Positions 58,752 to 61,619 of a DNA stretch of 64,000 bases are shown here, one piece after another. The notes under the pieces were generated by a model, which was not told the DNA's origin, ran no database searches, and worked only from the letters and a program-made list of their open reading frames with translations. The position numbers and the translations under genes are program-made. Where the stretch lies: the NCBI GenBank assembly GCA_019235715.1, contig JAFAKE010000051.1, positions 24,052-88,051 of the forward strand, written 5' to 3'. Position 1 is the first letter of the stretch; the number at the start of each line of letters is the position of its first letter. The stretch comes from Vulcanimicrobiota bacterium. Its GTDB lineage: Bacteria > Vulcanimicrobiota > Vulcanimicrobiia > Eremiobacterales > Eremiobacteraceae.

Positions 58752-59738
58752 CTACGCAGCCACGTCGCCAAGCGCGCGGCGCGCGAAGACGCGCACCATG
58801 CGCTTGCGATAGGGAATCGTCGCGCTCGTGTTGTCGAGCGGCTTGCCGGCAGCGAACGCCGCATCCGCTGCCGCTTCAAGCGCTTCGTGTTCGAGCTTGG
58901 TGCCGATGAGCGCCTGCGCTGCGGCGGGCACGTCGACGGGTTTCGGCGCGACCGCGTTCAACACAAGGCGCGCGTGCACGCACACGCCGTCGTCATCGCA
59001 GCGCACGAGCGCGGCGACACTGAGAATCGGAAAATCGAACGAGTTGCGCAAGCGTAGCTTGCGATATGCGCTGCGCGTGTTGTCTCCCGGCGGCGGCACT
59101 GAGATGTGCGTGACGATCTCACCCGGCTGCTTGGCCCACGCGCGCATGCCGTCGTCCACGTAGAACTGCTCGATCGGGATCTCGCGCGCGCCCGATGGGC
59201 CGATGACGTGCAGCCGCGCACCGAACGCTTGGAGCACCGGCGCCGTATCGGATGAGTTCACCGCCAGGCATTTCGGGCTTGACGTCGCGACACGGCAGAT
59301 ATCGCCGTCCTTTTTCATGCAATAGCCGAGCGCTTTGCGCCAGTCGAGGTTCTGATTGTAGTAATTGCAGCGCGTGTCGACGCAGACGTTGCCGCCGATG
59401 GTGCCCATGTTGCGCAATTGCGGTGTCGAGACGGCAGCTGCAGCCGCAGCCAGCGCCGGATAATGACGCCGCACGGCGTCGCTGGTGGCGAGCGCGGTTA
59501 AGGACGTGAGCGCGCCAAGCGTCAGGCCGCTCACATCGTTATAGCGGATATAGTTCAGGTTCGTGATCGGTCGCAGCCCTATGAGCACTTTGGGCGTGAA
59601 GAGACGCTGCTTCATGTTCGCATAGAGATCGGTGCCGCCCGATACGGGCAGCGCATCGGCTCCGTGCATCGCCAAGAGCTCGACGGCTTCGTCGGCGGTG
59701 CGGGCCGGGATGTAGGTGAACGGCGGCAAGCGCAGCAC
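58752..59738 (-). CDS. FAD-binding subunit of xanthine oxidase family, HcrB-like (4-hydroxybenzoyl-CoA reductase beta-like)
   Basis: LPVSGGTDLYANMKQRL; STPQLRNMGTIGGNVCVDTRCNYYNQNLDWRKALGYCMKKDGDICRVATSSPKCLAVNSSDTAPVLQAFGA, with an extra-Cys insertion. Confidence 0.87.
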   Translation of the reverse strand: MLRLPPFTYIPARTADEAVELLAMHGADALPVSGGTDLYANMKQRLFTPKVLIGLRPITNLNYIRYNDVSGLTLGALTSLTALATSDAVRRHYPALAAAAAAVSTPQLRNMGTIGGNVCVDTRCNYYNQNLDWRKALGYCMKKDGDICRVATSSPKCLAVNSSDTAPVLQAFGARLHVIGPSGAREIPIEQFYVDDGMRAWAKQPGEIVTHISVPPPGDNTRSAYRKLRLRNSFDFPILSVAALVRCDDDGVCVHARLVLNAVAPKPVDVPAAAQALIGTKLEHEALEAAADAAFAAGKPLDNTSATIPYRKRMVRVFARRALGDVAA

Positions 59739-59822
59739 GGTGAAACTACTTCAACCCAAGCGTAGCTTTTCCGTTAGCCGTCTTGACCGCGTTTCACTTG
59801 CGCGTGATTGTGTCCGCCGGTT

Positions 59823-59890
59823 GGGGGTGGGTTGGCGCCGGAGCTGGTCCGTAAAACCGCGCTCCGCGGGTTCGATTCCCGCCGCCTCCA
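59823..59890 (+). ncRNA. tRNA-like / tmRNA-TLD-like element
   Basis: GGGGGTG (59823-59829) pairs with CGCCTCC (59883-59889) via 2 wobbles; perfect T-arm GCGGG-TTCGATT-CCCGC; central hairpin CTGGTCCGTAAAACCGC; D-arm absent or truncated. Confidence 0.45.
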
Positions 59891-59991
59891 GCCCCGGGAT
59901 GACCGGAGGGTCAAGGCGTCGGACCTCTTGACTCAAGCCTTGCTGTCCGGCGTCGCGCATGTTAAGATAGCGGCACGGACCAGCTTCGGCG

Positions 59992-60017
59992 CCACCCGAC
60001 TTGGGTGGTTTTTTTTT
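59992..60017 (+). terminator. Intrinsic terminator
   Basis: CCACCC-GACTT-GGGTGG then nine T residues (60009-60017). Confidence 0.85.
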
Positions 60018-60038: not shown

Positions 60039-61619
60039 TTAGAAATACAGATCCTGATAGTAGATGGAGCTGTCGGGTGAGGGGACGTACCCGTGCACGT
60101 CTCTGCGAAACACGATGGGCGGCGTCGTGTGCGCGATCGCGACCAATGGCGTTTGTTCCGTCACGATTGCCAGCGCGTCGCGGTAGAGGATGCTGCGCTG
60201 AGATCGGTCATCGACCCGGCGCGCCCGCAATACGAGCGTGTGGAAGCGATCGTCCGACCAAAACGTGACGTTCGAAGCACCGGGCGGTTGAGCATTGTCT
60301 TTGTCGAGCGGCATGTAGATGAAGTTATCCGGATCGCCGTTATCGCCAGTCCAGCCGATGACGCACATGTCGTGTTCGCCGTTCTGCACTTTTTGGATGA
60401 AGGTTCCCCACTCGAACCCCTGCAACCGGGCGCGGACGCCGATCGCGGCGAGATCGGCCTGGATCGCCTCAGAGACGCGCTCGGGCTCGGGCAAATATGG
60501 CCGCGGCGCGGTCGGGAACCACAAGGTCGTTGAAAAGCCGTGTGGATAACCGGCGAGTGAAAGCAGACGCTGCGCGTGAGCGGGATCGTAGGTGCTGTCA
60601 AGCTCGACGCCCTGCGGCCATACCGCCTGCGGCAAGAACTGGCGCGCGATCGTCGCGGTTGGATCGTAGAAATGACGGACGAGCGCCGCTCTGTCCACCG
60701 CAAGATTCAGCGCGCGGCGCACGCGCACATCGTCGAACGGATGCTTGCGCGTGTTGAGCGCCAGAAACACGACGCTGTTGGCTGGTTGGTGGTACACGCG
60801 CACCGACGAGTCGTGCGCGAGTTGGGCGAGTCCGCCGGGTGTCGGGAATTCCCAGCCGTCGATGTCACCGCGCAGCAGGAGTAGGGCCGTGGTGGCAGCG
60901 TCCGGGATGTCGCGTAAGATCACGGTGCCGATGCGCGGCTTGTCCCCCCAATATCCGTCGAACCGCTTCAGTGTGATATGGTCGTCATGCACCCACTCCG
61001 TCAAGCGGTAGGGACCTGTGCCGACGGGCGCTTGCGAGAATCCGTTGCGCTCACGGGCGAGCGCCACCGGCGATGCGATGCCGAATGCGGGCATCGCAAG
61101 ATCCGCGAGCAGCGGTGCGAGCGGTTCGCGCAGATCGATTTCGACGACATCGGGGTCACGTGCGATCACGCTTGCGATCCGTCCGGGAAAGCCGCCGAAC
61201 TGCGCTCCGTAGTACGTAAAAATGCCCCACGCGTGATACGGATTGTGCGGATCGCGCCAACGATCGAGGTTGAACTTCACAGCTTGCGCGTCCAACGGCG
61301 TTCCATCTTGGAAGCGAACGCCGTGCCGTAGATGAAATGTCCATCGTCGGCCGTCGGCACTGACGGCCCACGATGTCGCAAGAGACGGCTCGATATCGAA
61401 GGTGCCCGGTTTATATCGCGTGAGACCCTCGTAGATGGCGCGTGTCGTCATGAGTGAGATTCCGTCAAATGCGATGGCGGGGTCCAACGTGACCGCGTCG
61501 TTGTTGCGCCCGAAGACGAGCGTATCGGCTGGACCGTGCGGCGGATGCGCGCCGCACGCGACGCACACTGACGCCAGGACCGTGCAGGTGAAGAGCCGTA
61601 GTGGCCCGCTAGGAGACAT
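60039..61619 (-). CDS. ABC transporter substrate-binding lipoprotein, family 5 (oligo/dipeptide type)
   Basis: Lipobox VCVACGAH; DTLVFGRNNDAVTLDPAIAFDGISLMTTRAIYEGLTRYKPGTFDIEPSLATSWAVSADGRRWTFHLRHGVRFQDGTPLDAQAVKFNLDR. Confidence 0.95.
   Translation of the reverse strand: MSPSGPLRLFTCTVLASVCVACGAHPPHGPADTLVFGRNNDAVTLDPAIAFDGISLMTTRAIYEGLTRYKPGTFDIEPSLATSWAVSADGRRWTFHLRHGVRFQDGTPLDAQAVKFNLDRWRDPHNPYHAWGIFTYYGAQFGGFPGRIASVIARDPDVVEIDLREPLAPLLADLAMPAFGIASPVALARERNGFSQAPVGTGPYRLTEWVHDDHITLKRFDGYWGDKPRIGTVILRDIPDAATTALLLLRGDIDGWEFPTPGGLAQLAHDSSVRVYHQPANSVVFLALNTRKHPFDDVRVRRALNLAVDRAALVRHFYDPTATIARQFLPQAVWPQGVELDSTYDPAHAQRLLSLAGYPHGFSTTLWFPTAPRPYLPEPERVSEAIQADLAAIGVRARLQGFEWGTFIQKVQNGEHDMCVIGWTGDNGDPDNFIYMPLDKDNAQPPGASNVTFWSDDRFHTLVLRARRVDDRSQRSILYRDALAIVTEQTPLVAIAHTTPPIVFRRDVHGYVPSPDSSIYYQDLYF

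Follow-up and report, generated by a model that had tools for sequence, protein, structure and literature searches.

Background

The closest described relatives of the locus reported here are transfer-messenger RNA and the antisense-controlled toxin modules of bacteria. In tmRNA (ssrA; RF00023), the tRNA-like domain has a T arm, a helix in place of the anticodon stem, and an acceptor with the G3.U70 pair and A73, which are the established identity elements for alanyl-tRNA synthetase; in the two-piece (permuted) form (RF04321), the molecule consists of two RNAs. CreTA and SdsR/RyeA are all-RNA (type VIII) toxin-antitoxin pairs. In Escherichia coli, tisB/istR-1 and symE/symR are SOS-induced type I modules with an antisense RNA (PMC8145889, PMC1891008).

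In the present study, we analyzed a 64,000-nt stretch (contig C61:24052-88051) of a Vulcanimicrobiota genome (2.5 Mb), hereafter the window, and found between two protein-coding genes a putative module of two RNAs, RNA1, which resembles tRNA and tmRNA, and RNA2, which would be antisense to it. Text searches limited to open papers found no description of such a module. To our knowledge, no tRNA-like RNA has been described that has an antisense gene of its own; each ingredient has a known relative.

Results

Fold and tRNA-like parts of RNA1

The features of the locus are as follows (window coordinates, strand, feature).

58752-59738, minus: FAD-binding oxidoreductase-like protein gene, named from reading of the translation
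59782-59811, plus: P1, promoter-like motif of RNA1, CTTGAC (59782-59787), 15 nt, CGTGATTGT (59803-59811); consensus over 81 upstream regions
59823-59890, plus: RNA1, tRNA/tmRNA-like RNA, from the acceptor 5' end to A73; RF00023, 31.9 bits; covariance model R1, 62.5 bits
59823-59829, plus: acceptor 5' strand GGGGGTG; G3 paired with U70
59830-59839, plus: minimal D arm GGU-UGGC-GCC, 3 bp; cloverleaf isoenergetic with the minimum free energy (MFE) fold; helix co-varies in homologues
59834-59852, plus: RNA1 stretch complementary to RNA2, GGCGCCGGAGCTGGTCCGT; predicted duplex -53.4 kcal/mol
59840-59865, plus: central arm GGAGC-TGGT-[CCGTAAA]-ACCG-C-GCTCC; 9/9 pairs co-vary
59866-59882, plus: T arm GCGGG-TTCGATT-CCCGC, 5 bp; 99.8% paired in homologues
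59883-59890, plus: acceptor 3' strand CGCCTCC and discriminator A73, seen in the sequence
59940-59968, plus: P2, putative promoter of RNA2, TTGCTG (59940-59945), 17 nt, extended -10 TGTTAAGAT (59960-59968); motif match
about 59975-60017, plus: RNA2, antisense RNA of about 43 nt; start inferred from P2
59975-59993, plus: antisense block of RNA2, ACGGACCAGCTTCGGCGCC; pairs with 59834-59852
59991-60017, plus: strong intrinsic terminator GCCACCC-GAC-TTGGGTGGT and T run; ends RNA2
60039-61619, minus: peptide-transporter-type substrate-binding protein gene, named from reading of the translation

RNA1 is 68 nt long, and CCA is not encoded. An earlier note on this DNA had already described the 7-bp acceptor with two wobbles, the perfect T arm, and the loop and bulge of the central arm, all of which are present; one of the wobbles is G3.U70. 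It had also seen no room for a normal D arm; however, a minimal D arm is present, and in the energy computation the full cloverleaf (-34.7 kcal/mol) equals the MFE fold (-34.8 kcal/mol) almost exactly. In homologues, the D stem has 4-5 bp. Only 26 nt lie between the D arm and the T arm, and they form the central arm, which consists of 5 bp, a 3' bulge (C at 59860), 4 bp, and the 7-nt loop CCGUAAA (59849-59855). The GGAGC/GCTCC pairing that the note had taken for an alternative fold does exist, but as the conserved outer stem of this arm. The family-wide loop consensus, YYG(A/T)(T/C)A(C/A), is anticodon-loop-like, whereas the length of the arm exceeds that of a normal anticodon arm.

Searches against the tRNA, tmRNA, and other Rfam models, which the note had proposed, gave an end-to-end match to RF00023 with the mRNA-like domain missing and a score below the gathering score of 47 (23.6-36.3 bits for the homologues). 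RF04321 matched at 17.7 bits, mainly through the T arm. No Rfam 15 family reached threshold over the locus, RF00005 (tRNA) had no match over threshold there, and ARAGORN made no call at RNA1. Because the host genome encodes a canonical tmRNA (contig C4, 156.9 bits, tag ANSEYALAA) and SmpB elsewhere, RNA1 is not the tmRNA of the cell. RNA1 shares with tmRNA the acceptor with G3.U70 and A73, the T arm, the helix that replaces the anticodon stem, and the type of 5' end (GGGGCGYTTCGATGGTGTCGAC in family f2, GGGGGCGTCACGGTCTCGAC in the host tmRNA). In contrast to tmRNA, it has a D stem and lacks the mRNA-like domain, tag ORF, and pseudoknots. Like the two-piece tmRNA, the module consists of two RNAs with one tRNA-like part; unlike it, both acceptor strands are within RNA1, and the order, pairing topology, and promoters differ.

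Distribution and co-variation of the family

A first similarity search yielded a handful of diverged relatives. Covariance model R1 was built on six relatives with N-padded rows, that is, the structure was imposed on six sequences and tested on about 80. With this model, an upper group of class-level relatives scored about 47-75 bits, and ordinary tRNAs scored about 42 bits or less. In total, about 80 homologues were found. Within the host class (Eremiobacterota/WPS-2), a second model (E <= 2e-5) detected the element in 48 of the 117 genomes; it had no matches in other classes of the host phylum. All of the evidence comes from genome sequences, for the most part metagenome assemblies. Sequences that matched the 5' pattern and bore the element were from Candidatus Eremiobacterota, candidate division WPS-2, or unnamed 'bacterium' assemblies, which places the host class in that group; other matches of the pattern (Pseudomonas, Nocardioides, and others) were without the fold. 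The weak matches (about 40-43 bits) examined in distant genomes were ordinary tRNA-Ala or were without RNA2. Most of the further weak matches within the class, which lay outside model building, also have RNA2, and no RNA2 partner was found for the true-tRNA matches examined.

The module was also present in two of the three genomes analyzed of one unrelated phylum. There it has a consensus sigma70 promoter (TTGACA-17-TATAAT/TATAGT), and RNA2 contains a small hairpin flanked by two complementary blocks, whose order is that of RNA1. This arrangement is less readily reconciled with a simple antisense duplex.

Among 81 distinct sequences, standard pairs occupied 96.2% of the pair cells, compared with 74.5% in shuffled and 36-57% in slid controls. 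Compensatory changes on both sides were found at 21 of 25 pairs, a level reached by none of 500 shuffles, although this count was made on an alignment fitted to the imposed structure and therefore leans towards that structure; the slid controls and the test of the loop against RNA2 (see below) do not rest on that alignment alone. Since the elements counted include close relatives, the changes are not independent events. The co-variation excludes chance, and the element withstood the search for homologues and co-variation on which the earlier note had made it depend. Acceptor pairing was 98.4% across homologues. The G3.U70 pair was retained in 76 of 79 distinct elements, while acceptor pairs 5-7 are free to vary; A occupies position 73 in nearly all elements.

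RNA1 contains no conserved open reading frame. Many elements have an ATG in the D arm, which is absent from the window copy; the reading frames that start from it range from nine codons to open-ended and have no common end.

Tandem copies of the element are frequent, with spacings of a few hundred nt. Three copies are present in the genome of the window, namely the window copy, C5:78742-78812, and C99:32613-32679, the last being one of the weak class matches with RNA2. The loops of the C5 and C99 copies differ, and each of these copies has an RNA2 to match. When the flanks of the homologues were compared, no neighbour gene was common to all elements and no recurrent mobile gene was found. Many f2 copies are located just downstream of, and convergent with, an apparent rlmN (C-terminus GRDIAAACGQLRAETQPK), and others adjoin a downstream acyl-CoA dehydrogenase-like gene; synteny is conserved, with no evident functional link. 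Carriage by a phage, plasmid, or virus was considered and rejected, since the only matches were due to chance and none from the viral collection was a true one.

RNA2 and its pairing with RNA1

The strong terminator that the earlier note had placed at the end of a single transcription unit is present; we found that it more likely ends a second RNA, which would start from a promoter near 59975. Nearly every RNA1 has a downstream segment complementary to the 5' strand and loop of its central arm, and a promoter motif about 85 nt downstream. In the window, the complementary block comprises 19 contiguous pairs with one G-U. P2 has the family form TTGnnn-17-TGnTAnnnT, a sigma70-type promoter with an extended -10, in which -10 positions 1, 2, and 6 are T, A, and T in 74, 75, and 76 of 77 elements, and the antisense block usually begins 4-7 nt past it. 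Because this extended -10 promoter recurs just ahead of the block, RNA2 probably starts at or next to the block and should run from there to the terminator (about 43-50 nt).

The 3' strand of the central arm of RNA1 also matches its 5' strand, so the loop provides the clean test of pairing with RNA2. Pairing with RNA2 at loop positions 1-5 reached 96-97% among 70 distinct elements, compared with 49-75% for shuffled sequences, and each position shows several pair types (e.g., CG 28, TA 26, AT 8, and GC 5). Complementarity of RNA1 was 41.6 with its own partner and 25.4 with foreign partners, and the mean predicted duplex energies were -52.0 and -36.7 kcal/mol, respectively. For the window RNA1, the predicted energy falls from -53.4 kcal/mol with its own RNA2 to -35.7 kcal/mol with that of copy 2; the paralogue on contig C5 is also predicted to prefer its own RNA2. 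Partner specificity is not absolute, since the partners of neighbouring copies are almost equally good in some tandem arrays. Beyond the first block, RNA2 tends towards complementarity with the D arm and, in many elements, with the 5' strand of the acceptor (CATCGAAACGC versus GCGTTTCGATG; 18 of 79 exceeded the 99% shuffled level). Such pairing cannot coexist with the cloverleaf of RNA1. On these sequence comparisons, RNA2 is well supported as a specific, co-varying antisense partner of RNA1 with its own promoter.

Promoter motifs and genes sharing P1

Both promoters are motif matches. The TTGACC box at 59783, which the earlier note had combined with a weak -10 (GATTGT), is present; it is not a weak sigma70 promoter but belongs to a conserved motif of another kind, CTTGAC-N15-CGTGATTGT. 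A sigma70 promoter for RNA1 was looked for and none was found; the P1 motif takes its place. Over 81 upstream regions, the family consensus is CTTGNC-N15-CGTGAWNGA, with up to 1.74 bits per position and a near-fixed distance to RNA1. The pattern occurred 34 times in 13 genomes, against 5 for a reversed control, and more than 150 times among the matches listed for 117 genomes, against 16 for the reversed motif; some of these matches fall inside genes and may be due to chance.

Recurrent matches lie shortly before the start codons of recA, dprA, and comF-like genes (8 cases), and P1 also precedes many Uma2-type nuclease genes and several unknown small proteins. With a weight matrix, P1 was located at a near-constant place ahead of dprA in each of the two main families (15 of 27 exceeded the 99% level of shuffled sequences) and was found before recA in several f2 genomes (8 of 18 overall exceeded it); in the genus of the window, recA has a sigma70-type promoter in place of P1. 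Since dprA and comF are hallmark transformation genes, RNA1 is plausibly a member of a competence or recombination regulon. The motif, which is not of the sigma70 type, seems to define such a regulon, which would include many putative endonucleases of the Uma2 family.

Two further observations concern these genes. A family of proteins of roughly 250-340 aa (starting MYVQPLEGSL or similar) is repeatedly found downstream of the P1 motif, with no Pfam match in the one tested. In the recA of the window's genome (C7:6727-7515), an in-frame TAG stands at the site of a glutamate codon in relatives (FIDVEHALD), which probably reflects an error of assembly or variation between strains.

Discussion

The explanation that we favour, with somewhat better than even confidence, is that RNA1 is an alanylated effector that mimics tRNA and tmRNA and, once induced, slows or diverts translation, and that RNA2 is its constitutive antidote. 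RNA1 would be transcribed from P1, the promoter type also found before dprA and comF and, for some members of the class, before recA, and thus would probably be made during competence or DNA recombination. It may then be matured by RNase P and CCA addition, charged with alanine through G3.U70 and A73, and presented to the ribosome with or without SmpB, where it would interfere with translation and be toxic. RNA2 would be made constitutively from its housekeeping sigma70-type promoter, find RNA1 at the exposed loop, and extend the pairing through the 5' arm to the D arm, often as far as the acceptor strand, destroying the tRNA-like fold. The interference would be set free only when RNA1 outruns RNA2. 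Among the three readings offered by the earlier note, a minimal RNA with only the tRNA-like domain of tmRNA fits best, given the tmRNA-like 5' end, the alanine identity, and the missing mRNA-like domain; the RNA2 half of the module had not been seen.

The layout would parallel that of tisB/istR-1 and symE/symR, with a tRNA-like effector replacing the peptide-coding mRNA. As in those modules, the effector has a stress- or recombination-type promoter and the antisense brake is transcribed separately, here as judged from motifs; a dedicated antisense RNA, as in type I toxin-antitoxin systems, is indicated by sequence, co-variation, and promoter. Unlike in those modules, the effector is a structured RNA in which no toxin-peptide ORF was found, and the gene for the antisense RNA follows that of the effector on the same strand. 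As in CreTA and SdsR/RyeA, both partners are RNA; we know of no sequence or gene relation between the module and either pair.

The main alternative is a two-piece functional RNA, in which RNA2 would serve as a subunit and complete RNA1 through a long helix replacing the anticodon arm or tmRNA helix H2, so that the duplex is the active form. The very long and strong pairing, the permanent linkage of the two genes, and the precedent of two-piece tmRNAs are in keeping with it. However, the duplex would destroy the co-varying central hairpin of RNA1 itself, RNA2 pairs also with the D arm and often with the acceptor strand, and the promoter types of the two RNAs differ. We consider this alternative unlikely because the duplex destroys the conserved fold.

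It is also quite improbable that RNA1 is a small RNA whose loop targets mRNAs, with the tRNA-like body serving stability only and RNA2 titrating it as a sponge. The exposed 7-nt loop has a U-turn-like sequence and the loop/RNA2 pairs differ, as such a system might have, but a body of this kind has no need to keep the alanine pair in nearly all elements. Furthermore, the loop differs among copies of one genome and RNA2 follows it, which is unexpected for a fixed target in trans.

The earlier note's third reading was one noncoding RNA of about 200 nt. In such a transcript, the 3' part would fold back on the tRNA-like domain, and RNA2 would be no separate molecule. Both parts are on the same strand and the whole locus has one strong terminator; nevertheless, the extended -10 promoter directly ahead of the complementary block in nearly every element argues for two RNAs from two promoters, the second antisense to the first, and the single transcript is probably wrong, with only a slight chance of being correct. 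Slighter still is the chance that RNA1 is an mRNA encoding a small toxin, which RNA2 would counter as a type I antitoxin RNA of the classical kind: the D-arm ATG of many elements and the tisB/istR-like layout would suit it, but the scattered ORF lengths, the lack of a shared end, and the missing ATG in the window copy do not. Finally, a decayed tRNA or tmRNA fragment, as the earlier note had also suggested, or an integration-site remnant would account for scores under the Rfam and ARAGORN thresholds but can practically be dismissed: about 80 elements show selection at 21 of 25 base pairs, the element has its own promoters and a partner RNA, the flanks have no recurrent mobile gene, and nothing in the viral collection was a true match.

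Under the favoured explanation of an alanylated effector held by its antisense RNA, a more specific proposal, to which we would give slightly less than an even chance, is a switch consisting entirely of RNA. A tmRNA mimic charged with alanine would be produced alongside the DNA-uptake machinery, act on the ribosome of competent cells, and be neutralized by its cognate antisense RNA, and the copies within a genome would be different, mutually specific loop/antisense pairs. The competence link in this proposal rests on the promoter motif.

If our explanation is correct, this would be the first family known to us that couples a tRNA-like RNA, probably aminoacylated, to an antisense RNA dedicated to it. 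The module offers a ready system for studying what a tRNA-like domain does on the ribosome when it has no tag template, and the family supplies dozens of naturally diversified RNA pairs. The family would also connect the evolution of tmRNA, antagonist pairs made only of RNA, and natural transformation in a phylum that is almost uncultured.
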